Assembly: GCA_021234155.1 (NCBI GenBank) | Contig: JAJEKV010000111.1 | Coordinates: forward strand, 2,300,968-2,364,967 | Direction of reading: 5' to 3' | DNA: 64,000 nucleotides | From: Isoetes taiwanensis | Lineage: Eukaryota; Streptophyta; Lycopodiopsida; Isoetales; Isoetaceae | Part shown: positions 1,861 through 54,800 of the stretch, in pieces | Position numbering within the stretch: position 1 is the stretch's first letter | Layout of the letters: every line of letters starts with the position of its first letter | Made by a program: the position numbers and the translations under genes | The notes under the pieces: model-generated | Told to the model about the DNA's origin: nothing | What the model saw: the letters and a program-made list of their open reading frames with translations, nothing else | The model's database searches: none

Positions 1861-2195
1861 AAAAGACCTGATTTTGTTTCTTCTTTACAAATACAAATTG
1901 GTCGCTTGTACCTCACACGTGTGAACGACGGCTAAAATCGTTCGGCCCAGGGGGGGAATCCACCTTTCGACACACGTGCGATTCGAGACGAACAGAGAGA
2001 AACGAGCCAGAAAGAAAGAAGGGCACAGAAAGGTGGGACGGCAGGCAAAGGGCAAGGGCAAGGGCGCTCTTCGTCAAATTACTGTTGGATCTTCTAATCG
2101 CCGAAGCCACCTTTTTATAAGCTGTTCTGCTATTGGATTTCTGTTTTTTCAGTTCAAACAACGGCAAATCTGACCCAGATCGGCTTAGTTTTTCC

Positions 2196-5097
2196 ATGGA
2201 ACAAAGCGCCACTGGGGAAGCCTTTTTTCATCGTTCACAGGGGAGTCCCGGCGCTGTTTCTGAACCTCCTTGGAGTAAATCTTATGCACAACAACATCAG
2301 CAAGGATTAGGGTTTGATAAGGAGCAGAACTACGAAACAGGGCAACGCTGGCAGTCTCGGGACGGTTCTGATGGATATGGAAATGGGGAGAGAGAGGCAG
2401 CTAGGCAGGATGGAGCCTACGCTTCAAGGGAGTATTCGAGAGACTATTATAGGTATGATGAATATGCTTCTCAAGATTTTCATTCTCAGGGACGACAGTC
2501 TGATCATGGTAGTTATGCATCTGAGGACTGGAAATATGATGAACATGGTGGTGCATCTCAAAACGAAGGACCACATAGTCAGCCAGATTACAAGGGGTAC
2601 TCGTATGGAAATCAAGATTACGACTTCAGAAACTATGGAGAAAAGCAACATCCTCAGCAAGAGGGAATGAACTATGGTGGATATGCTCAGACAGATGGTC
2701 AGCATCAGCAGACTTGGTCACAAGGTCAGGGGAAATGGCAGAGCACTGATAATTCTGAAAGGGCTTATGGAAATGATTCTGACAGAAGAAAGGATTTAGA
2801 AAATTCTAGCCATCATGGCCATGATGTAAATGGTCATGGCGAAGGAACGGCATATGAAGATACCAAGCCAGATAGCCGGGCACGTTCAGAAGAGAACTAT
2901 GGCAGATATCAAAAAGAGGGTTCTACTGGTGGTGATTCTCTTAATCAATTAAGTGGGGAAGGACAGCAGCAAACTGATAAGAGTGCAGTTTCTTCTACTG
3001 GGACAAGTTCAGGAAAGAAGAGGAGGAGCAGGTGGGATCCCCAACCAGAAGAAGCGGAGTCTCATGAGAATGATGGTTCTACTACAAAAAAGAGGAAGTC
3101 GAGATGGGCTGCTGATGATCCCGTAGCCAATGCTTTGGGTCAATATCAGTTACCTGAGTTTGTGAAGGAGCTTACGGGAGGTGTTGATCTGGACCCAGAA
3201 CTTCAAGCCTTAAATATTAAGCTTCTGGACATCAACAGGAAACTACAAACCGGGCAGTTCTTTGATGATAGACCTGCTGATGCTCCGAGGTCACCATCTC
3301 CAGAGCCAGTGTATGATAATATGGGAATTCGAATCAATACCAGGGAATATCGAGCAAGGGAGAGGCTAACTCGAGAGAGACTTGAAATTATTGCCGAGCT
3401 GATAAAGAAGAACCCTGCATTCAAGCCTCCTGCAGATTACAAGCCTCCCAAAGTGTATAAGAAGCTGTATATTCCTGTCAAAGAGTATCCTGGGTACAAT
3501 TTTATTGGCCTTATCATTGGACCACGTGGTAACACACAGAAGAGGATGGAAAGAGAGACAGGAGCAAAGATAGTAATAAGAGGAAAAGGATCTGTAAAAG
3601 AGGGAAGGTCACAGCAGAAGAGGGATTTGAAACCAGACCCGTCAGAGAATGAAGACTTGCATGTTCTAGTAGAAGCTGACAATGAGGAATCTTTAGAAGC
3701 TGCAGCTGCAATGGTTGAGAAACTGCTAGTTCCAGTAGAAGAGGGAAGAAACGAGCATAAAAGGGCACAACTGAGAGAACTTGCAGCTCTTAATGGGACT
3801 ATTAGAGATGATGAATTCTGTCGTCTTTGTGGTGAACCTGGTCATAGGCAGTTCAACTGCCCATCTCGCTCTTCAACATTTAAAAGTGATGTTCAGTGCA
3901 GGATCTGTGGAGATGGTGGCCACCCTACAATAGATTGCCCTCTCAAAGATTCTGCTCAGGGTCATAAAATGGATGATGAATACAAGAATTTTCTGGCAGA
4001 GTTGGGTGGAGCTGATGGTGAAGTGGGACCATCAAGACTTGGTAAGACCCCCCTAGCACTTACACAAGGAGCGACTGGTCTCCCATGGTCTGGAAGTAGT
4101 GGAGGAGCAGCAGCACTTGGTGGTTTCGTTTCTGCTGGAACATTGGGCCCTCCACCAGTGCCAGGCTCTACTGCACAAAAACCAGTACAAGCCGGCACTA
4201 AATTCAGCAAAGATGGGGATGATTCTAATTTTTATATAGGTTATTTACCAAATACAATCGATGATGAAGGTTTAATAAGGCTGTCTTCGCCCTTTGGGCA
4301 GATTGAGGATGCAAAGGTGATTAAAGACCGTGTAACAGGTTTAAGCAGAGGGTATGGTTTTGTGAAATACACAGATATTGCTAATGCAGCTCAAGCAATT
4401 GTTCACATGAATGGATACAGGCTAGATGGAAAGATTCTTGCAGTTAGGTGTTGCAGGTCGTCCTCCAACAGCTGGAGCTCCACCTGGTGTTGATCCTTCA
4501 GGTAATTTTATGCAGCCACCCAGGGGACCACCTGTTCCACCCATGATGGGAGGACGTATTCCGCCACCCTGGGGTGCTCCTCCACGACCTCCGCCTTCAT
4601 ATCCATATGGACCTCCGCCTCCTTATGGCCCTCCTGGTCAACCATTGCAGTATGCCTCTTCATCTGCAGGTTCTCCTGTGCAGCCTCCACCTCCTGGTGC
4701 CTATACAGTGTCTCCACCAGGTGTGTCTGCTTCTCCAGCACTTTATCCTGGGGGTCCTCAACCTGGTGGATATTCTGGACCTCCTCCACCAGGTACTGCC
4801 CCAGTACCTTACACAGGAATGTCACCAATGCCATATCCCGGACCTCCATCTGCCAATGGACCTCCAGGTGTGTCACCTCCTGGTATTTCTTCTGAACCTG
4901 CCACTAATGGAAACCAAGGTTATCCACCTACACAGTACTATGGTCTATCTTCTGATGGTGGGGCCACAGGAACACCCCCTGTCTCTGGTGGGGCAGCTCC
5001 TTGGTCAGCTATTGCAGTTCCAGCAGCTAATACCCAGCAGAATCAAGCAGTGGAGTCAGAATATGAACGCTTTATGTCTGAAATGGGTCATTCATAA
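2196..5097 (+). CDS. SF1: Splicing factor 1 / branch-point-binding protein, intronless, one frameshift
   Basis: SF1 binds the intron branch point and hands it to U2AF in early spliceosome assembly. The first ATG (2196) has a G at +4; the frame then runs unbroken to 4493. In order I see a Gln/Tyr/Gly-rich N-terminus, two basic-RW motifs ([10 protein letters not shown] about residues 274-283; [10 protein letters not shown] about 298-307) like the U2AF-binding ULM, the SF1 helix-hairpin (about 324-420), a KH domain with [10 protein letters not shown] (about 424-515), two CCHC knuckles ([28 protein letters not shown]) and an RRM with FYIGYLP and RGYGFVKY (about 677-752). This is the plant SF1 architecture. 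One extra T at 4449, right after the RRM, shifts the frame to a stop at 4493; the other frame carries the expected proline-rich tail to 5097. Restored length is near 966 residues, longer than the roughly 800 of Arabidopsis SF1. No intron is evident in the coding part. Confidence 0.93.
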
Positions 5098-9991: not shown

Positions 9992-10070
9992 TAATATATA
10001 TATAATGTTTATATATATGGATTAATATATATATAATGTTTATATATATGGATTAATATATAATGTTTAT
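9992..10070. repeat. AT-rich tandem repeat (31-bp unit, about 2.5 copies)
   Basis: The unit alternates TA runs with taatgttta and tggat. Copies are at 9992-10022 and 10023-10053, with a partial copy to 10070. It lies about 380 bp beyond the 3' end of the Rep-like gene. Confidence 0.85.
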
Positions 10071-10318
10071 TACAGGGTTTATGGGTTTTTATTTCGGATT
10101 TGATATGCCACGTTGATGTGGAGAATATTCTCCAGACGATGCCAAATCAAGGGTCCACGTTTTTTACACAAGAAAACAGCCTGCCACTTTCTAAGGTGAC
10201 ATGCAACCAAAGGCACACTGAATTTCACTGTCTATTACACGGGAAATCTGTTTTAATGGTCACATTTATATTACATTCACAATCCAACAAAAACCGTGCA
10301 AGTTTATAACACATTGAA

Positions 10319-10462
10319 ACACAACAGAACCACCACTCCACAATATATCTACAGCACGCTCATTTTTGCACTAACTTCCTACTGTCCACCTTCACAACAG
10401 AACCATGACTTCACAACACATGTACAGATGTCCATCTCTCCACTAACTTCCTACTGTCCACC
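10319..10462. repeat. 72-bp tandem duplication at the 3' end of the Rep-like gene
   Basis: Two copies, 10319-10390 and 10391-10462. Each starts cacaacagaacca and ends with the same 22 bases (10369-10390 and 10441-10462). The stop codon of the Rep-like gene (minus strand, 10453-10451) lies inside the second copy, so the duplication creates part of the 3' untranslated region. Confidence 0.85.
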
Positions 10463-12940
10463 GTTCCTCTTCCTTGCGCATCCAAGGGATGGATCATGTC
10501 TGCGTCTAAGCGCCTCCAACTCACGAAGCTCCTTCAGTAGGAGACCTCGACAAAGATTTAGATGCGGACGCAGTAATCCGCCCTCAAGTATTATAGAGCT
10601 GACCCCATGCCTTTCAACAAGATCCACACTAGCTTGAATGCGGTCCAACGTCTCTGCCAATGCTAAACGGAGTTTTCCTACAGCTTCACAAACCTCTCTG
10701 ATTGACTGCTCTGCCTCCTGCAAATGTGTGACAATACTATCTGGCCCTTCTGCTGTCCCACAATCTACTCCAGACTGTCCATCTGACACCGCCTCATCAG
10801 AGCTATCGCTTAAAACAATGACCTCCACATCTCGCCCATCACCTGCACCCACTCATGAACAACATAGCAATTAGCAAGATGCAGTGAACAGAACAGTAGC
10901 TCAACCAACATCAAAGGTCCAATCATGCATGTCTAACGGAATGAAATCACAATCATCAGCTGGGATATCCGGGGAGGGCGCCTGCACTCCACTATCTGCG
11001 TAAATAAATTCGTCCCCATCACTACTCCCGTGGTCCTCCTCCTCTCCATCATCAAATGTCCCTGTCTTGTCCCATATTCGCTTCCTTCTTTTCCCGATCC
11101 TCTCTACTGGGACAATGCCTGGTTGGCTCCCAAACAAACTCATTCTTACATCTTTGTAAGCACATGTCTCGGGTGCAAGCATTATCCTCCATGCTGCTTG
11201 CACCCGCTCCAAAGACACGTAGGCGGAGTTATTTGGCAAAACCCACGAACTGGCAAGCCTAAACTTGCCAGTCTGCAACATACGCTTGACCGTATGAATA
11301 AACGATGCGGTCCTAAATCTGCCACCGTGATATAACAAGTAATGATACGCTGTGCCCATGATATTCCTATTGTCAAGGAGCACTAAATTCTTCACATCTC
11401 CAGCGCCATATAGCGCATATAACTCCTTCCCAATCTTCACTTGCTCAGCGCTCACATTATGTAAATGCACCTGGAAATGCAATTTACCCAAGTCTTTTAA
11501 ACAGTAACCGACCAAGCCTTCGAAACAGTGGAGGCGACTTCCTGTCAAAGCTTTACATAGAATCATTGCCCCTGCGGGTCTACTGTGACTCCAACCAAGG
11601 AAATTTTTGATCCTAACGTTCACACTCGTAGGCGTTTTAGCATGCAAGCGAAAGACAGCTTGGACGTGCAGATGATCCAAGGAGGAGCTCCTTTCAAGCG
11701 CCACAACACCGGCCTTGCAATTCTCCTTCATGAACTGCACTACACGCTCATACAGTGCAGTCGGGACATCTGCACCCCCAAAGACAATGGTCACTGACAC
11801 ATCCAAAACAGAAGACACATCAACAACCTCCTCGCCACCTCCTCCTCCAATGTCCATACCAACATGTTCTTCAAACATGCTGGCTGCTCTCCTTCCTCTC
11901 CCTCGGCCCCTTTTGCCACCTCGACCTCTTGTGACATATGTGATTCCCTCCCCCTCAGCTTCTTCTGCATGGTCATGAATGGGCTCACAAATCCTGACTT
12001 GCCTCCCCCTTCCACGTCCACCCCTTCCTCGCCCACGGTTACCTGCACCAACAGACCCTCCCCTTCCCCTTCCAACTCCATCACGTTCTACACCGACCTT
12101 CCCTGCTGCAGTCTCTGGAAATACAAATGCTCTCCGATCTTCATACACCACTGGCAGATCGTTACTCACCAAGCTGCCTCGTTCCCCACTCATCCCCTTA
12201 CTCAGAGAAGCACCTCCCTGCCCATTGCTGGCCAATCCACCTCCAGGACCCAGGCCAAGGCTATCCCCCTTTGTCATATCTTCCACCGTCCCACCAACAA
12301 ACCGGCTTGAAGCATCCAGCCCAGATGCCCCAACTCACCTCGACCTGCGGACACGTTTCTCATATTCGCACCTCACCACATGCATTGCTCTCGGGCATCC
12401 TCCCTCTCGCATCAAGGCAATGATGCAACCGTCCCCATCAAACCTCTTTGCGCCATGAAACACTTAGATTGCTCTAGAATGACTCTTGGCAGAGTCAACC
12501 TATGCACCTTCACTCTCAATCTTGCTGCTCTGCGAATATCCATACCCAGCAACTACAACAACAAGAATATCTGTATAGCTTCCACAGCACCCTTCCTACT
12601 CCAGCGCTGCCACAGGAAAACTTCAAAGCAGAAGGCCAATCTTACCTCTGAGAACTGACGAAACCTACATACATGGACATCGCTTGCATGCAGCTCACAA
12701 TCGGCCCCAGAACTGCTACCTAAAGGCAATACCTAAACAGACACTGGCCTTGCACCAAATTCCCACGACAACAACACGAAATTCAAACATTCAAACACAG
12801 GGACTGGACATTCCTACCTCTAGGCGCCCCTCCCGCAGACATCTTCGGCAAGCACAAAACCACTCTCCCTTCCCATGCTCATCGGCCACAACCAGCTCGC
12901 TGTCACGCAGCCCAGCTCCGTCACGTGAAGACGCCCCATT
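10451..12940 (-). CDS. Rep-like HUH endonuclease, multi-exon (Replitron/CRESS-Rep type)
   Basis: Predicted role: single-strand DNA nicking and joining by a rolling-circle initiator (HUH) domain. Exons whose phases all agree: 12940-12818, 12732-12646, 12445-12339, 12227-10906, 10842-10451 (introns 85, 200, 111 and 63 nt), about 676 residues from the first exon seen. The 5' exon and start are not resolved. Exon 1 encodes CACRRC and exon 2 CELH, possibly metal-binding. The large exon begins with Arg-Gly tracts (nt 12,080-11,880), then a strand VSVTIVFGG (11,800; motif I position), DHLHVQAVFRLH (11,677-11,642; the His-x-His-x-Gln of motif II) and GYCLKDLGK (11,509-11,483; motif III Tyr and Lys). 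No Walker A, so no SF3 helicase is seen. The C-terminal exon is acidic, then helical. These motifs and their order are those of CRESS-type Reps with one tyrosine; Replitrons are the eukaryotic transposons I know with such enzymes. It could be a transposon gene or a domesticated one. GC is higher than in flanking DNA. Confidence 0.7.
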
Positions 12941-14217
12941 CTATTTGCAGACATGCCAATGCCCGTTCCCCACAAAACATCTAAATGGCAAGAAGCTCCT
13001 CAAAACCCCAAAAATATACGACTTCCGATACAATACACAGGCAAAATCTTACTCCAGACCATTGAGGGTTGTCTTGCCCTTGACAAAATATTATCTACAC
13101 ATATATAATCGAGACACACCAAGATTCGATTCCCAGATTCCTGGGTTGGGGAAAAAATAGGGAGGAATTTTTTTTGGAGAAAAATAGCAGAGGAAGCCAC
13201 GTTTTTATCCTTATCCGCTTCTCTGCTTCAACATGCGTTCAAGCGTGGTCGGATCTAGGGTTTCAAGCCCGGTGGCAAAATCGATGAACAAAGATTCACC
13301 AGACATAGCGGTCCCAATGCGCTTGCTGCCTATATAAGCCAAATGTTGCCGGAAGATGTTTTCCAAAGCCGAGTATTCGAGATAGTAGCAGGTAACATTT
13401 AGTCAGTTGATATTTTTCACCCATTTTATTCCGCCCTTGCAGAGCCCTGCTCATACCAAATCGTCCTGTTAGGCTTAGTTACGGCAGTTAAAAGAAAAGG
13501 GCAGCCATTGGTGTTAATTTCTTTGCTTTGCATAGACACAAAAGAAGTCTGAAAAGATATTTCATGCAATTGCACAAGGCAAAGATGTCTTCTTTATGGT
13601 CACCAATATTTTCTGCTTTTAATAGGTAAGATCTTGCCTTGGCCATGAACAAGCACTTGCAATCTGCCTCTGTCAAAATTCCTTGGTTGATGAAGTTCAA
13701 ATGTGTGCACTTTTGAACTTGTGGTATCTCAAAATTTAATTTCCCTTATTGTGAATTCTTGAGATGGGACATGGGAGTATTGATTCTTAGATCAAACCCG
13801 ATTACGTGGTTTTCACATTTATATAAGATTTATAATCTTTGGACTATTTTGATTCTTAGGTCAAACCCGTCCTGTCATATTTTCTAAGAGAAAAAAACTA
13901 AGTGGTCCTTGATAATAGTATGAAGTTTCTAGCTGAAGTTTCTAGCTGGTATTAACAATGGTTATAGATTTCCGCAGTTGCAGTATGAAAATACATAGTT
14001 AAGGAACATATAGTCTAATATATAAAATAACAGTTGTTTATTGGAAATGCATGTTGGTTTTAGGATTCTTTTCTTCTGAGGCAGCATTCAGGTCTGCCCA
14101 AAGACATTTCTTAATTCAAAGTGCAGAGCAGCCATGTCTTTCTGTTGTGGTTCATCCACATGCTCTTGGCTTGATCGGTTCAGATTATCCGGTTCATTAA
14201 TTTTCATTGCAATGCAG
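12941..14217. other. Probable 5' flank of the Rep-like gene, then AT-rich DNA
   Basis: The missing 5' exon of the Rep-like gene should lie here. One candidate is a minus-strand ATG at 13306-13304 followed by about 31 open codons (MSGESLFIDFATGLETLDP and on), but no convincing donor follows it. A tatataag stretch at about 13,330 could serve as a TATA box on either strand. From 13,400 the sequence is AT-rich with no supported gene. Confidence 0.3.
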
Positions 14218-14313
14218 CTAGAGAATTATGCTAAAAGTGAAGAAGCCAAAATTGAAGAATTCATTATTAAGTCTGTGGCAGACTCTGGTGCAAAGGTTGT
14301 GGTAAGTGGAGGT
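14218..14313 (+). pseudogene. CCT8: Orphan exon of chaperonin CCT8 (TCP-1 theta)
   Basis: The frame reads LENYAKSEEAKIEEF followed by KSVADSGAKVVVSGG. Plant CCT theta subunits carry a near-identical segment in the apical-domain region. A good acceptor (gcaatgcag) stands just before it at 14217, and gtaagt follows within the GAKVV codons, so this is an exon-shaped piece. One extra isoleucine is present in the helix relative to the family as I recall it. No other CCT8 exon could be found in the surrounding several kilobases, so it is most likely a relic or a captured exon rather than a working gene. Confidence 0.6.
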
Positions 14314-15515
14314 GTGTTTGGGAACTGGCTCAACACTTTTGTGATCGTTACAAGTAAGATTACATCTGCGAAGATAAAAGTCTTGTTTTTTCTTATTTTA
14401 TTGGCTCTTTCATATACTATGTCATTTTCTTTTTAGTTAAGGTGCATTTGCCTATTGAGATCATTTTACGATGGCATTTTCGAGCGGGCTTATGGTCTAG
14501 CTTCATCCCATGACTTATTTTTTTATCGATTACATTTGCACATACAAAGATTTATGTTGAGCATGTAAGGTATTAAGTATACTAGATGTTAAGTATATTA
14601 GATCATTTTTCTCCGGTCCGCAACCTTTTGCAGCAATTACGAGTTTTGTTGAAGCTTGGGTTCATGAAAATGTTACTCATGTTGTAGGCGACTAAATATC
14701 AAGTAATAAGCGCTTGATATTTCCCTTTATCTTCTTTAGAATGCTTAAATCATCACTTTTGAGCTAGAATGCTTAAGTTCTTCTAAAATGCCATAAAGTT
14801 GCTTACTATTTTATGATAGTAAAATATGGATGTTTCTCTGTTTGCTTGAAGGCGACTCTTGCCGCGGCTATTACTACATGAAATATATTGCGAATATACA
14901 TTTAAAGAACTGTTTGTACATGAAATTGATTATTGATGCATCCATTTAAGATGGAACATTGTATTTTTTACGTGATAATTTCATCCTGATCTATATTTTT
15001 TAGGGTGCAAATGACAAGCAAGAGCATCTAGCATTGTGATTAGAGTTTCAATAGATTACTCGTGTCATTATAGCGGCCCGAGGCGGTTTAGGCCAAAAAA
15101 AAAAGGGTATGTTATTTAGTTTTAGCGTGTTTTTGCAGTCTTGACAAAACAAATCTTAGTCTTGGTTTTTTTTGCATTTTGTCGTAATTACGGTTTTCTC
15201 CTTACTCGCATCCCCTTTCATTCAGCGAGTATTTCTAGTCTTCTTAGTGCATTACGATCTAGCACATTTTCAAGTTGCGCATTTGGTTGAACATGCACTC
15301 TAATTATGCTTTTCGAAGAAATCATATGTAGGGCTGGTCCTATACAATAAAATGCAACTTATTTGTGTGGTGACAATATTATATGTTGCTAGTTGCCTTA
15401 TATAATTTATTGACCTGCAATAATTAGTTAAGATTGAGGAACAAATTCTACAGCCTTATCATCTTTTGCCATACTTTGACACTTGCAATTTCACATTTTT
15501 CTTTGATTGTCTCGA

Positions 15516-15607
15516 GCATACTATCTTGTGTGTTATTGAAGAGGAGAAGAAAAGATTTGGGGCATACTGTCTTGTGTGTTATTGAAGAGGAGAAGAAAAG
15601 ATCTGGA
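15516..15607. repeat. 46-bp tandem duplication
   Basis: Copies at 15516-15561 and 15562-15607, differing at only a few positions; both contain gaagaggagaagaaaagat. Confidence 0.9.
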
Positions 15608-15751
15608 CGGACTACTGGATGTAATTATATTGAAACTTGGTTAATAATAATATTGGCTGATTTTTTTCAGCGACGTCGTGCGAATTAATCGATAATAGTT
15701 TCTTCTAGGATTTTCAAATATCGTTGCAAGGGTCCTTTACCCCATTGGTCC

Positions 15752-15940
15752 AAAAATAAGCATTTTCTTTAAACTACATGAACAAAATCATTTTATTCAT
15801 TTTTCAATTTCCAATTGATGGTTGGTTTGTAATATTTTGTATGTTGTAAAAATAAGCATTTTCCTTAAACTGCATGAGCAAAGTCATTTTATTCATTTTT
15901 GAATTTCCAATTGATGGACAGTTTGTAATATTTTGTATGG
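15752..15940. repeat. 96-bp tandem duplication
   Basis: Copies at 15752-15847 and 15848-15940, both starting aaaaataagcattttc and ending at a run of ttgtaatattttgtatg. About 90% identical by eye. Confidence 0.9.
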
Positions 15941-16103
15941 TTGGGAATATCGATACTTCAAAACGCCTTTTGAAAGTTTATTAGAGCTGTTTTTTTCTCT
16001 CCCAATTGCATTTCCAGGAGGGGGATTTGCGTGATTAAAGCTTTTTTTCCTCTCTCGCAAATATTGGACGTTAGTAGCGAATCTAAGTGCACACGTTGGA
16101 GCT

Positions 16104-16148
16104 AAAGAAATGTTCGCGGCGGCCTTGGCCGCCGCGATAAATTTCTTG
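16104..16148. repeat. GC-rich inverted repeat (hairpin) in AT-rich DNA
   Basis: The core 16115-16136 is cgcggcggcc, then tt, then ggccgccgcg, an essentially perfect palindrome. The arms extend on both sides as aagaaat and its complement (16104-16110 and 16142-16148) with small mismatches between. It is the only GC-rich patch for hundreds of bases. Confidence 0.85.
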
Positions 16149-16388
16149 TAATGTTTAAATAACACGTTAAATGTGATAGTGTTATGCTAAATTTGGCTTT
16201 CAAACAAGAAGTTATCTCTTTTAACTCATTCTGTGGACTTCAAATGAGTTGTATTCCCCTCCTACATATGAAAACACATGGATCAACCATGTCAAACCAT
16301 GCACAACCCTTCAAAAATATCTCATCCTAGAACTTGATGGCTTATGTCATATACATATTCTTAACTCCCATTATAAAAGGGTGGTTTC

Positions 16389-31211: not shown

Positions 31212-32252
31212 CTATCCCGTGCCGGCGTCTCGTGTGCACTGGGCGCACCTATGTGTCTCGTTCACGCTCCAGCGCCCGACCATTGGGCTCTCTTGTCCTT
31301 CCAACAAGCCCCGAGTGGATTGCGGGCTCATCGCCCAACAGCGTAAGCCAAGTCGCGGGAGCCGAGTGTAAATGTTGGCCATCTTACCGGAAATAGACAA
31401 TGTGCCTATCGAGGGCCGCGGCGATGCCGCAGGCATGAATCCCGTCTCTGCAACAAGATCGATATGGGCGAGGGGCTTGACGCCAAGTGCCCGCGTCAAA
31501 AATGCCTTCTGGACGTGCTCTAAGTCGTTCCAAGTCGCCAAAGACACCACTGGGCCCCACACCTCGACCCCATATAAAAGAACTGGCTCGACTAGTGCCC
31601 GGAACAAATGTGACTGATGGCCCCAGTGATACAGCTCTGCCCTATGACTATTATTTTGCATTGCATACAACGCCTTCCAACCTGCGGTCACCCGAAGGCG
31701 AATGGATGCATCCCAATACATTGAGGACGGGAATTCCACCCCCAGGTACTTGTAGCTGGGTGTGACCTCTACCATCTGCCCCTGGTAAGTGATTGCCGGA
31801 GGTACCGGATGACGCGAGGAGGATATGAGGACCACCTTAGTCTTGGCCAGGTTGACCCGCATGTCCGTCGCCTGGCAGAATGTGTCCAGGGCATCTAGGT
31901 GTGCCTGCATTCCCTCTGGTGTATGGGCCAAGAGGTCCACATCATCCGTATAGATGAGCTGCCGGATGACCTGGTGCAAGAGCTGTATACCGTCCCCCCC
32001 CCCATTGGCAGCTAGCCAGACTTCCAATTGGTCAATGTAAAGTCCAAAGAGTGTAGGTGAGAGAGGACAACCTTGCCTAACTCCAATGCTACTGGCAAAT
32101 GACTGTCCTTCCCGTTGCATGCGGCCTGTGTAGCTCTCATACCCGGTCAGATATCTTTGCGTTACGCAGATCCATAGGGAACCCCAAATGGTGCAATCTA
32201 AGCCCCACAACTTTTCGGGGACCGTGGCCGAAAGCCTTTGCAAAGTCCACAA
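31212..32252 (-). pseudogene. LINE ORF2 reverse-transcriptase segment
   Basis: About 346 codons open. The segment contains RT motif 4 (GVRQGCPLSPTLFG), the catalytic IYTDDVDLLA in place of YADD, then the thumb region (KTKVVLISSS, YKYLGVEF) and ALVEPVLLYGVEVWGP. The first RT motifs lie upstream in other frames. The D-D pair of the active site is kept, but the A-to-T change and the surrounding frameshifts argue against activity. Confidence 0.85.
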
Positions 32253-34200
32253 AACATCGATCGGTCCTCCTCACGGTTCCTCGCTGTCCCGACCAGGTCC
32301 CGAGTGTGAAGATGTGATCAATGGTCGAATGTCGAAATTCGGAAGCCTGCCCGGTAAGTGCCCTGACTTCCGCCGCCTACCCCATCCGTTACTTCTTTGT
32401 TCGAGAATGCCCGCACCACGGCTTGGCAAATCCGAGTGACCATGATGGTTCGGTAATTGGGCGGACCGGTGTGGGTCCCCGCCTTGTAGATCGGAATAAC
32501 CCTCGCTTGTGGTCCATGACCGGGAAAAACCCTCTTGCGGCGCTTCGTTGAACAAAGGCGGTCCAGGGCCGCACCATGGGCTGTCCCGCCCACTTGAGCA
32601 ACTCCACTTGCAGCCATCCAAATTAAAGGCCTTCCCATTATCCAGTGCCGCAGCCCCTCTTCGACATCTTCTTAAAGTGATCACCCGGTGGAGCCATGTT
32701 CGCGGGGAAACATCCGTCCGTATTCCCGCCGGGGATCATAAAGCCGTTCGGTGTACTGCTCCCAGCACTGCCATGATGTTCCCCGCAGTGGTGTCTTTGC
32801 GAGTACCCCCTACCTGGCAAAGCTCTCGGTGGGCGTCCGGTAGGCGAACATTTCTCCACAGTGCCTTGCGGTACCTTGCCTTTGTTTCCTTGAGGAAGGC
32901 GCGGTAATGGCTGGTGGCTTTGAGCTTCACGTCTGATCCATGATGAGGCCAATTAATGCGTTTTAGCGTTCCTTACACTCGACATCAAACCATTTATTCA
33001 CGCGAGAAGGTTGGGTCTCGATCTGGCGTGGGGAGGTCTCCCAAAGCATCACATGCCCCGCTACTCGGGGAGCTCAACCAGCTGATCGGGTTTGTCGCTC
33101 CAGTGTGTGGGCTGCTGAATCGTCGGGAGGGCTTCATGAGCATGTCACAGAACTCGCCGCCATAATCCAAGCACAGCCGAAGTCGACGGAGGTACCGCTC
33201 GAGGGTGCCATAGCTGGCCGGGCCAGCCTCACATAAGTGGGAGGTGATCCGAAATGGCCTCCCCGTCCCCGACCGGCCGCGCCGACGTGAAAATGGCGAC
33301 AAGGTGTGCATCTGCATCCCGCGAGCACTATGATATAATCCACGACACTAGTTCCGCCGCTGTGATTGTCCTGTCTGCAAGTGTACCCGCGGGAAGAGGG
33401 CCATTGTGGTAGGCCATTGCATATGAGCAGGTCAAAGATACCGCACATCATGAGCAATTGTCTGCCAAAGCGAAAGTTCATCGGTATCCGTGCCGCCAAC
33501 CTGCCTCTGCCATGGGGCGCAAGCTAAGACGCCATCCGCTAGCGGTCTCAACCCGCATGGCCTTCCCATCCCCGCCCGCGCATTGAAGTCTCCAAGGAGC
33601 ATAACTCTGCCCATCCGCTTGTGCTGCTGTATGTCATCGTATAGATCGACATACGGGTCCATCCTGTCCACCTCCGGGTGGCCGTGATAGAAGGGACTCT
33701 CTGCATGGGGAAAGTAGCAAGCAGCTAGGAAGAGAGGATCCCCGCCACTCGGATCCACAAGTAGCGCTTATGTCCAGCCGGTCTTCGAGGGAAACCAAAT
33801 GTGCCAAGGCTACCCCAGAGTAGCGAGTAACCCCACCCAGTGCCCACGTCTCCCCAATACAACCATTGAACACCGAAATCTTTGCCGTACCACTGGCAGA
33901 TCAGGCAGCCTGTGGCCTGGGTGTTCCCATGTCTCCATGAGGAAGATGAGGTCCATGTCCACAACTAGGCTATCACCCTTCTGCCATGGGAAACCCCGAC
34001 AGTTCCAGACCACCACCCGGAGGCACATTTCCTATTGAGCAAAGCAGCAGAGCGGGACCGAGTTGCGGGGCAGATTCGGACCCAGGCGGAGAGGCGCCGG
34101 GCGACATTTGGGCGAAGCGGGGAGCACTTGAGTCAGAGGGGCGATTGCGGAGGGTCAAGAGCAGAGGCATGAGTTTTCGACAACAAAGTTCGGGCAAAAC

Positions 34201-35423: not shown

Positions 35424-37063
35424 CTAATATTTTGCCTCAAACTTAGCAATTGATTTCTTGAGATGTTCGTTTTTCATCTGATTGTTCTCAGAACTTGATC
35501 CATTAGCATTTGCTGGACTGCCATAACTGGAACTGGTGCTATTTCGAGCTGAAAATTGAGAAGGAAGAGCAAAGTCCTGTTTTGGACTCTCCAAAAGGCC
35601 TTTACCAATTGTGACTGATTGCAAAACAGGTTTCTGGCTTTTGATAATGCTAGTATTTAAAATGGCAGTGCCAACATCATGCAAACGCGTACATCTGTTC
35701 CCAAAGCTATTCTCCTTAGAATCCTGGCTAACAGGACAATCCTGTTGGACGTCCTTACCATGATCTGAGCAGCTTAAAACACTTCCAGAAGAAGTGGCAT
35801 TATGGTCATCATGCTTGATTGCTCCGTTGAGCTGTTGCTCACTGTTTTGTTCATGAAACTGAAAGGAAGCAATGGAGTTGATTTTGGCTTTTATGCTAGA
35901 CGTTTCTTCACAAATTTCAGAACTGCATGCAGCTTCTAAAGTTTCTCCTATAAATAGATCTGCAGGTAGAGGAGATACTGAAGGTAGAGAAGATGCCTGC
36001 TTTTGATATAATGTCGGACACTTACCCGAATTGTCAATACTACTTCTATGTACACATCTTTTGTCGTTCCCACTGTGTCACAACTGGAAGCTGTACAATC
36101 TGTGACACAAATGCTTCTCTTTGTCATCCCAATATCTTTAACACAACTTCCTATGCCTTCCTTGGCATAATTTTGAGATGTATCAAAGTTGGCAGCAGTT
36201 AGACATTCTATATGTTGAAAACCTGCATCACATTGCAGAAATGGATCCCTTAATAGCTCCTTTGCAGAAAGCCTTTCTGAAGCTGGAGCCAAACATTTTA
36301 AGATAAAACTCAGAGTATCTGGATCCTTCACTTTATTCAGAGCTGCAGGCTTTATTCCAGATGTGACCTTCCTAAAAATTTGAGCAGCGTTTTGGCACTC
36401 GCTGTAGGGATACTCAAAAGTAACCATCTCTAACACGCACATTCCAAATGAATATACATCAACAAGCTCATTGTATTCTTCATCATAAAGTTCGGGAGCC
36501 ATGAACGCTGGAGTGCCAATTACACTATGTGCTGAGTGGTCTACCATGGTTGCTAGTCCAAGATCACCAATTTTTACCTCCCCTTGGTTTCCATTTACGA
36601 AAATATTATCGCACTTCAGATCACGATGTATGATAGGTGGATCATGACTATGAAGACAAGAAAGGCCTTCCAAGATTTGTCTTGCCCATCTTTTTACAGC
36701 TTTCATATCCACATGTTTATGCTTCATCCTATACTCTCTTAGTGTTCCAGAAGAAAAAATTTCTGTTATGAAAATAATATCTTTGGTAGCAGGGTCGACC
36801 CAGGATGTATAAAACTTCATGATGTTTTGATGTTTTAAAGCTTTTAAGAGATTAATCTCTGAAGTTAAGCGATGAACATCTACGTCTTGGACACTTACTT
36901 GGTTCCAAGCAACTTCAATTCCTTCTTTTTCATCGAAAGCTTTATAAACTGTTTTAAACGCACCTCTGCCAAGGATTTTATTGTAGCGACCATAGCGGCC
37001 AGTTGGGTCGATTTCAGAGAAGGAATCTTCAGCTTCCTCGTCATCGGAGATGGATTCTTCCAT
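35424..37063 (-). CDS. WNK: WNK (with-no-lysine) serine/threonine protein kinase
   Basis: WNK kinases phosphorylate targets in plant ion, clock and stress signalling. From the ATG at 37063 a single exon encodes the whole kinase domain (residues about 26-276). The ATP-binding lysine sits in the glycine loop, GRGAFKTVY (K37), and strand beta-3 reads EVAWNQV without lysine, which is the WNK hallmark. The catalytic loop is [10 protein letters not shown] (about 144-153), the magnesium motif is DLG (167-169) and the activation segment ends [11 protein letters not shown]. After residue about 345 the frame shifts: the kinase frame stops at 35948, whereas an overlapping frame, open from about 36077, continues through a Ser-rich tail to [15 protein letters not shown] and a stop at 35424. 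One base appears lost (or two gained) between about 35,995 and 36,077. Alternatively a strong donor (CGG then gtaagt, near 36,023) is used, but I found no in-phase acceptor. Restored length is about 545 residues. Confidence 0.92.
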
Positions 37064-37277
37064 GAGAAAAATCAGAGAGTAGTAATATATGAGATAAAAA
37101 TTCAGCGCCAGCGCTCAAAGCCGACTGCGTTCAGCCACAGCATAGTGTGAAGAGCTTCCTTAAATATAAAGGTGAAGGGGAGGGGCCTTTTTGAGAGTCC
37201 CTTCCTCGTAGCGGAGGGTTTCTTCTTTTATTCAATCACACAAATAGCCTTTATTTGCCTTTATTTGTGTAATAAAT

Positions 37278-51858: not shown

Positions 51859-54800
51859 ATCATGTTCTGGAATATACATGGGCTTACACAAGCAAAAGCA
51901 AAAGCAGTTGCGGAACAAATTAAGCATTTTGATATGGTACTGTTTTGTGAAAGTTGGGAACACCAAGCCAGAGCTCTATTAGATATTGCAAACTTCATTT
52001 TGCTAGGCTCTGCATGGAATTTAAAAACACCTGGTGTAGATAGAGGTAACGGAGGGTTGGCATTTTATATTGCAGACTTCTATCTCAATTGTGAGAGTAC
52101 AAGACCATAATCAGCATATGTGGATAAGGATGAATATGCGGGATAAGGTGGTTCACATGGCTTTATGCTATTATGCACCATTAAATATGAGTCTATACCA
52201 GCAGCAAGATCTAGATAGGAGGAATCCATTACATGCACTCTGCAAAGATATCATGGAATTCATTGAATTGGGAGAAGTACTAATCATTGGAGACTTTAAC
52301 GCACGGACCAAAGCGGCCCAATCCGTCATATTTGAGCAGCCAGAAGATGTCCTCTTGCCCGAATATGTGGATCCAGGCTTTCTCAGAACTTCAAATGATG
52401 CAGTTAAGAATCTAATGGGGGATTATCTGCTTGAATTGGATACAATATGCGGTATCTCCATCATGAATGGAATCAGCAGGTTTCCAAACTCGAGAGGCTC
52501 TACTTGTTTTATCCCGTTGGGGGAAAGTACAGTAGACTATGCAATGTCCCTCAGAGACTCGCACCTAGTCACAGACTTTGAAATAGGTACCAAGTTACCA
52601 GAATTTGATCATGCCTATTTGAAAGTAGTCTTAGAAGGGACTACCATTAAATAGCAAACTCACATTTCCAACCCAAGCTAAAGCTGGACCACACAAAAGG
52701 AGCAGCTTTCAAACAAGCCGTGTCAAATGGGCTCGCTCAGATCAAATGGTCGGGGCTCCTAAGCAAGGATGCTGCCATGTTAACAGAAGTTATGATCCAT
52801 GCTGCAGGCAAAATTTTTGGATATACAAAGCAGAGAAAACCAGGGCATCATTGCAATAGCTGGTGGGATCATGATTGTCGTAGAGCCCGAGCAGCGCTGC
52901 CAAAAGGTATCAGAATTAAACCAGAGTGGTATAAAGATCTGATCAGATGTAAGAAGCGCACCTTTTTTAAGCAAAGACATGAGTCATTAGGGCATTGGTT
53001 TACGAAATATCCAAAAAGATTCTGGTCCAAATTGCTCTCCACAAATGTGCAGGATATGGTGAAAATCAGCGGCATGTTGGAGATGGTGCAAACGCTCTAC
53101 CATCAAGAAGGTGCAGGATCAATGAGGAAACTCCGCACTAACGAACTCATGTTCAATGAAGCTGATGTTAAGGAAGCTCTTTCACACATGAAAAACGGCA
53201 AGGCCTCGGATCTGCAAGGTATGTGTATTGAACTGTTTAAATGGGGAGGAGATGATCTGATCACAGTGATCACACACCAACTAAATGAAGCTGTCATTAA
53301 TGGCCTGCCACAAGCCTGGCGAGAGAATAGGATCATTCCGATCCACAAATCTGGCAGTAAGCTAGAAGCCAAGAATTACCGTACAATTTTAGTGGGCAGC
53401 ATGTTTTCTAAATTGTTAGGCAGTTTGCTAGAATACAAATTGAGTCGTTGGGCTGATGAAAACAGTAAAAGAGCTCTATCTCAAGCAGGTTTCCGGAGGA
53501 ATCACAGTACTCTGGATCATGCACTAACTCTCCAGGTTAAGTCAGAGAAAGCTAAAGCACCCAGGAAGTCTTTATATATGGCTTTTATTGACTTCTCTAA
53601 AGCTTTTGACACTGTGCCCAGGGATGGCCTCGATAAGCGAATGGAAAGGCTAGGTGTGCCGGACTTCTTGCGGAGCTCAGTGGCTTGCTTGTATGAGGAA
53701 GTGATTATCAAGTTGGGAACTGGAGCATCAGGCCCGATATATAGCACCATAGGTGTATGGCAAGGCTGCCCTTTGTCACCTACCCTATTTGGTCTGTATG
53801 TTGATGAACTCGAAGAATGGCTTCATAGTAGAGGCGTAGATGGCACCTGATTAGGGAATTTTGTGGTCCAGCTTTTACTGTACGCAGATGATGTGGTTCT
53901 TCTAGCGGACAGACCTAAAGCATTACAACGCCATCTTGATGTGCTGGTACATTTCTGTAAGGAGAAGAAAATGCAGGTCAATATGGAGAAATCCAAGGCA
54001 ATGATATGTGGGACTGTAAGTAGACCCGATTTGTTCTACAATGGAGAAAAGTTAGAAGTAATAGACTATTATAAATACTTGGGTCTAGAGTTCTGCTCTA
54101 ATTACAGATGGAAGGAGTGCATAAAGCAAAGAGTTGCAGGAGGAAAAGTGGCTCTATATGCCATGCTGAGGAAATGCCACAGATTATACCTCACGGATTG
54201 GGGTTTGAAAAAAATGTTATTTAAAACTTTGGTACAGACTGTAATATTGTATGGAGCGCCAATCTGGGGACCAGCTATCTCAAGAGAAAATTGGGACCAA
54301 ATAGAAGTGGTTCTAAAGACTTTTCTGATGGAGGAATTGGGCATCAAATGACAAACTCCATATGCCGTAATGCTGGCCGAGACAGGGCTGATCCCACTGG
54401 AAGCTGAAGATTTGAATCTTTACAATAAACTTTGTGAATAGGCTGCATAAACAAGCTGATAGTCGCCTATCCAAGGAAGCAATGAACCAATCACTTGGAT
54501 CGGGCTAGTATAATGATGTCATGAAATGGGCAGAGAAATGGGGGATCACGGCAAATAATTGGCCAGATACAGATGTGGGAATGAGAGATTTAGTGCAGAC
54601 GCTAGCAGTAAACAAAATATGGGCCAAATCAGGATCTCGGATGGAGTATTACAGGGAAAATGTCAATACAATGGTTGTGCACACAATCCAAGCATATTTG
54701 GGATCAAAGGTACCAAGATCTACAAAACAGATTATTGCTAGATATAGAACCAGTTCTCACCGTTTGGGAGTCGAAACAGGGTGCAGAGCAAAGATACTAA

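Follow-up and report, generated by a model that had tools for sequence, protein, structure and literature searches.

The window, a stretch of 64,000 bp of Isoetes taiwanensis DNA, carries on its minus strand a dispersed repeat of approximately 3 kb. The repeat encloses a gene for a putative HUH endonuclease with one predicted intron, and a different repeat lies close to its 5' edge. The features of the element and its gene are listed here in the order of their 5' ends, with the evidence on which each is based.

10063..13064, minus strand: element assigned to the Replitrons, given as its homology extent of 3,002 bp (edges common with other copies)
12277..12543, minus strand: N-terminal part, out of frame in the window copy (frame comparison with the relatives L010 and L011)
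10906..12277, minus strand: main coding exon, starting at the first Met in the open frame (third-position substitution bias)
12002..12073, minus strand: Arg-Gly tract 1 (translation)
11888..11929, minus strand: Arg-Gly tract 2 (translation)
11417..11797, minus strand: HUH endonuclease domain (PF21859.2, residues 180-306)
11651..11677, minus strand: DHLHVQAVF, HUH metal-binding motif (residues 220-228; H-x-H kept by all eight distant copies, L001-L008)
11492..11509, minus strand: GYCLKD with the presumed catalytic tyrosine (residues 276-281; Tyr in the same 8 of 8 distant copies)
10843..10905, minus strand: predicted GT-AG intron of 63 nt (frame kept; coding substitution pattern on both sides)
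10451..10842, minus strand: second coding exon with a coiled-coil-like tail, stop at 10453-10451 (substitution pattern)
10320..10462, minus strand: pair of direct repeats of approximately 73 bp overlapping the last part of the coding sequence (found in L050 and L043 as well)
10063..10085, minus strand: 3' tip, CCCATAAAC ... ATAAACAT (counts of CCATAA and AAACAT in other 3' ends)

The window translation contains an open frame of 477 codons on the minus strand (12334-10904), compared to a longest stop-free frame of at most 296 codons in 300 dinucleotide shuffles of the region 10100-13260. A sequence-only reading of this DNA had described one gene with the motifs FGG, DHLHVQAVF and GYCLKD in this order and approximately 50 residues between the last two. 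All three are present as claimed in this frame, with FGG at residues 185-187 and the HUH and tyrosine motifs at residues 220-228 and 276-281, respectively. The Arg-Gly tracts that it had mentioned were found on translation as two separate tracts (12073-12002 and 11929-11888), both located N-terminal to the HUH domain. Its description of the gene as intron-bearing agrees with the predicted 63-nt GT-AG intron, across which the frame is kept and on both sides of which a coding substitution bias is seen. The predicted splicing would result in a protein of 587 residues (Met at 12277 to stop at 10453-10451), to which the second exon would contribute approximately 130 residues as a leucine-rich tail that, by eye, is coiled-coil-like.

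Substitutions between the window copy and L010 at codon positions 1, 2 and 3 numbered 14, 6 and 20 in 12276-11843, 12, 5 and 35 in 11842-11135, and 4, 5 and 14 in 11134-10906, while in the second exon 21 fell on third positions and 6 and 3 on the remaining positions. Third positions were the top substitution class also in the comparisons with L011, L013 and L014, in all four stretches. Judged by this third-position bias, both exons are coding. The extent proposed for the gene (10451 to 12940) was borne out through the main frame down to 10451, but not at its 5' side, where the segment 12940-12335 ends here in a stop just before the main frame.

Using hmmscan against Pfam, the domain matched Replitron_HUH (PF21859) with E = 9.9e-19 and 68.4 bits (curated cut-off: 28.5 bits), profile positions 1-127 of 128 aligning to residues 180-306. 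PF21859 was the sole Pfam family above its cut-off in both exons; apart from it, a single match was listed, between exon 2 and PEP_mutase, which stayed below the threshold (E = 0.036, 14.1 bits; cut-off: 31.5 bits). This profile match at 68.4 bits is in line with the earlier proposal that Replitrons are the nearest named group. At the level of motifs, DHLHVQ and the single Tyr in GYCLKD, together with the PF21859 match, likewise support the proposed one-tyrosine HUH nuclease. No helicase domain was found among the Pfam matches of the two exons at E up to 10, consistent with the claim that an SF3 helicase is missing, and no viral Rep model was found among the Pfam matches in the same range. Profile searches of PHROGs and NCBIfam gave no match at E up to 10, and sequence searches of the PDB gave a single chance match apiece (E = 1 and 1.6). 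No relatives were detected in two scans of IMG/VR or in a scan of GTDB contigs, all sensitive to close relatives only, nor by tblastn in plasmids and phages.

Structure models computed without an alignment were poor (mean pLDDT of 40.5 and 46.9). In the shorter of them (139 residues) a predicted strand and helix precede two further strands, the last of which begins with the histidines; helices follow, and one of these would carry the tyrosine. A Foldseek search with this model gave a list with IS200/IS605-type HUH transposases at the top and in 21 of the 50 rows shown (E = 0.03-0.22); the entries 2ec2 and 2fyx, titled only 'transposase', are ones that we take to belong to this family. The same rows also hold the unrelated EF-G/eEF2 and ribosomal protein S6, and none of the 50 rows shown reaches E = 0.001. 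The low-confidence model would agree with an HUH fold, short of proof.

Relatives of the gene were searched for in the assembly (1.66 Gb in 1110 contigs). The family search revealed 2165 first-look candidates, and all 150 that were scored passed the cut-off (range 70.5-84 bits; these rows do not include the domain of the window itself); in 14 control genomes the Replitron_HUH family was found in none. Multi-copy paralogues, which the earlier reading had suggested looking for, are present as many dispersed relatives. A search with the DNA of the element, in which 40 candidates out of 587 were scored, yielded at least 56 matching pieces, a figure that includes the window itself and four matches to the flank alone. 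Among the pieces scored, the closest long copy was L010 with 87% DNA identity, followed by the near full-length relatives L011, L013 and L014 with 82, 79 and 78%, respectively. The closest piece of any length was L033 (463 bp, 91% identical), and a near-identical copy was absent among the pieces scored (40 of the 587 candidates). The distant copies L001-L008 share 42.6-51.8% protein identity with the window gene and display D-H-L-H and G-Y-C-M-K-D in all eight. Among the tblastn pieces, in which overlapping loci repeat some places, the two histidines and the glutamine were found in 29 of 35 and the tyrosine in 35 of 41; some of the pieces that lack them are decayed, e.g. those of L021, L023 and L030. 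Within the 64-kb window, an in-window blast search found no second copy of the element (best E = 0.16).

The edges of the element were determined from 29 fetched loci besides the window's own. Homology starts at window position 13063-13065 in 16 of these 29 loci and ends at 10057-10063 in 10 of them; some of the loci overlap, and the remainder are partial or diverging. Edges at 13064 and 10063, approximately 3.0 kb apart, are common to four near full-length relatives. Relatives carry an additional 5' tip of approximately 36 bp, which is missing from the window copy, where the divergence sets in at 13064. By eye, the tip begins with ATAAACTT in 11 of 19 copies and with a close form in 3, and it is absent in 5, including L010. 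At the 3' end, 19 of 20 further copies show CCATAA, directly followed by AAACAT in 12 of the 20; these counts were made by eye on 20 3' ends fetched of 40 listed, with rows aligned by eye on a chosen motif. Words of the ATAAAC type, a motif likewise chosen and followed by eye, occur at both tips of relatives, while the window copy has only the 3' word.

According to PMC10741241, Replitrons have direct terminal repeats of 5-11 bp, no TIRs, a length of 0.9-4 kb and target site duplications (TSDs) of 2-8 bp. The lengths of the window element (3,002 bp) and of L049 (3,046 bp) lie inside the 0.9-4 kb range given there. L049 is flanked by TATTTT (6 bp) on both sides; in L047, L048 and L050, the other three of the four copies inspected, no clear target duplication was seen. 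An exact direct repeat of 10 bp, CCACGTTTTT at 10155 and 13197, was rejected as the terminal repeat, given that 11.9% of 2000 dinucleotide shuffles reach this length and that the copies place the edges elsewhere. It lies near the edge of a strand-skew segment (10155-13141). Bordering the 3' end of the element on the outside, positions 9992-10062 form a perfect tandem repeat of 31 bp in 2.3 copies, the units of which carry ATAAACATTATATAT, a word also found in the 3' tip of the element.

At its 5' edge the Replitron is separated by 27 bp from another repeat of 3.07 kb (13092-16158), which is approximately 94-97% identical in L039, L040 and L042 and partly present in L041. This repeat begins with TATCTACACATATATAATCGAGACACACC and has a hairpin, GCGGCGGCCTTGGCCGCCGC, approximately 15 bp from its other end; classed by eye, it looks like a non-autonomous Helitron-like element. 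Four flank matches of 96-97% (query 1-209 to 1-221) that had been considered as empty sites belong to this repeat, the homology of which stops at 13091-13092 in three loci (L040-L042) and at 13080 in L039, and none of the four places inspected is an empty site. Given the proximity of this repeat, the missing 5' tip of the window copy may have been lost in a rearrangement there.

Selection on the HUH domain was evaluated by the method of Nei and Gojobori over 236 codons, using only copies in which the compared stretch had neither gaps nor stops, so that decayed copies are left out. The dN/dS values of the window against five intact copies were 0.06-0.13 (L010: 0.08; L011: 0.06; L012: 0.09; two further copies, on contig C27: 0.12 and 0.13). 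Compared among themselves, three C27 copies gave values of 1.1 to 4.0 at a dS of 0.006-0.026; they differ by few changes, and constraint is not visible since their split. Such a pattern is what a transposase lineage gives, in which the moving lineages are under selection and the copies that they leave behind drift. The private changes of the window copy numbered 4, 1 and 9 at codon positions 1, 2 and 3 of the HUH part (9 of 14 at the third position), and in the second exon 11 of 17 fell on the third position. This lean towards third positions indicates that the window copy was constrained for most of its separate history, or that this history was short relative to sampling. A dS of 0.30 between the window copy and the nearest relative that is intact marks the copy as old.

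Upstream of the main exon, L010 and L011 have a frame that opens at the Met corresponding to 12543 and includes the HUH motif (555 and 550 residues, respectively); in the window copy this frame ends after 43 residues. An early stop likewise closes it in L013, L014, L020, L026, L034 and L017 (the last being the same copy as in L043), so that the frame is open through the HUH motif in two of the nine copies with that Met. The comparison suggests that the N-terminus of the window copy is damaged, while a donor-like site at 12338 leaves room for splicing as another reading of this stretch. In L010 and L011 the N-terminal stretch contains three cysteines, and in the window copy it is out of frame; a metal-binding role for it would be a guess. 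Further upstream, the segment 12940-12815 shows the better substitution pattern in one frame and a Cys-rich look in another, and neither stays in one frame across all five copies compared. With its 5' tip missing and its N-terminal part out of frame, the window copy has probably lost the ability to move autonomously.

The domain family, the two coding exons, the common edges, the many diverged relatives and the purifying selection on the HUH domain are established, and we regard the feature as almost certainly a Replitron copy, i.e. a eukaryotic one-tyrosine HUH transposon and a member of an already known kind. The sequence-only reading had left room for two other origins. One of them is a host gene domesticated from a Replitron and held under selection for a cellular task. 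A long open frame with an intron would suit such a gene, as would window-private changes that still favour third positions. However, most of the element persists around the gene, and a 3-kb repeat with common edges and many dispersed relatives argues for a transposon. Moreover, the N-terminal part is out of frame compared to L010 and L011, and low dN/dS among copies is equally expected of a transposase lineage; domestication is therefore very unlikely. The other origin, capture of an old Rep gene from a CRESS-DNA virus, was suggested by the resemblance of the HUH and Y-C-x-K signatures to motifs II and III of such Reps. Against it stand the strong Replitron_HUH match, the location of the gene inside a repeat with edges of its own, and the lack of relatives in two IMG/VR scans sensitive to close relatives only. 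Neither a Rep model nor a helicase appeared among the Pfam matches at E up to 10, and PHROGs and NCBIfam returned nothing, so that a viral origin appears unlikely in the extreme.

Within the Replitron reading, the window copy might still be mobile, its protein starting at the Met at 12277 or being completed by splicing and its 5' end having merely diverged. The HUH frame and the second exon are open and constrained, and the donor-like site at 12338 would allow such splicing. Yet the 5' tip of the relatives is missing, with a different repeat 27 bp away, the N-terminal frame differs from that of L010 and L011, and the closest among the pieces scored are a long copy at 87% and a 463-bp piece at 91%, all of which makes present mobility improbable.

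A Replitron spotted by reading alone has in this way been confirmed by test, in a large genome rich in the family, and the anatomy of its subfamily can be given, comprising two coding exons, an Arg-Gly linker, edges, tips and the divergence of the copies. By analogy with the family, the Replitron protein would most likely bind one end of the element and nick one strand by means of its His-x-His metal site and the GYCLKD tyrosine. During host replication, which would displace a single-stranded copy, the protein would remain joined to the 5' phosphate, and the joining of this copy to a new target would amount to copy-and-paste transposition.

Tail-to-tail inverted pairs of copies were found at three places (L044 on C1037, L045 on C1034 and L043 on C27). 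In L044 the arms are approximately 93% alike and turn at the 3' tip, with a spacer formed by a series of inverted 3'-tip copies; in L045 they are approximately 87% alike and turn just before the tip; and in L043 they are approximately 94% alike and turn inside the element. Tentatively, Replitrons of this group may sometimes form inverted dimers, when replication that has arrived at the 3' part turns back on itself and changes template, although we consider this unlikely. If true, the dimers would record an intermediate in which a single strand has folded back; should they prove frequent, the replication step of Replitron movement could be tested through them. By eye, the 150 places listed (of the 2165 candidates of the family search) show same-strand neighbours, e.g. 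on C1053 and C1031, and no opposite-strand pair within 10 kb.

The founding description of Replitrons is reportedly that of Craig (2023, in PNAS). The window element shares with them the one-tyrosine HUH domain, the lack of a detected helicase, a length of approximately 3 kb, short direct words seen by eye at the tips of its relatives, and a high copy number. Its two Arg-Gly tracts and its predicted spliced, coiled-coil-like tail are possible differences from other Replitrons, and the window copy differs in lacking the 5' tip. IS200/IS605 TnpA proteins are Y1 HUH transposases, and the likeness to them consists in the Foldseek rows for the low-confidence 139-residue model (E = 0.03-0.22), whereas no significant sequence match was obtained among PDB chains. 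Reps of CRESS-DNA viruses have HUH and Y-x-x-K motifs, while the window gene has neither an SF3 helicase nor a viral Rep model among its Pfam matches. Helitrons combine two tyrosines with a fused helicase, in contrast to the single tyrosine in GYCLKD and the missing helicase match of the window element. As stated in PMC10741241, they too are eukaryotic transposons with an HUH endonuclease.

Elsewhere in the window, reverse transcriptase frames (PF00078) of LINE-like appearance lie at 31215-32270 and 52651-53847. The window further contains two genes that mark the host as a eukaryote and no more narrowly, an SF1/branchpoint-binding-like gene at 2121-5094 and a WNK-like kinase gene at 35951-37114.
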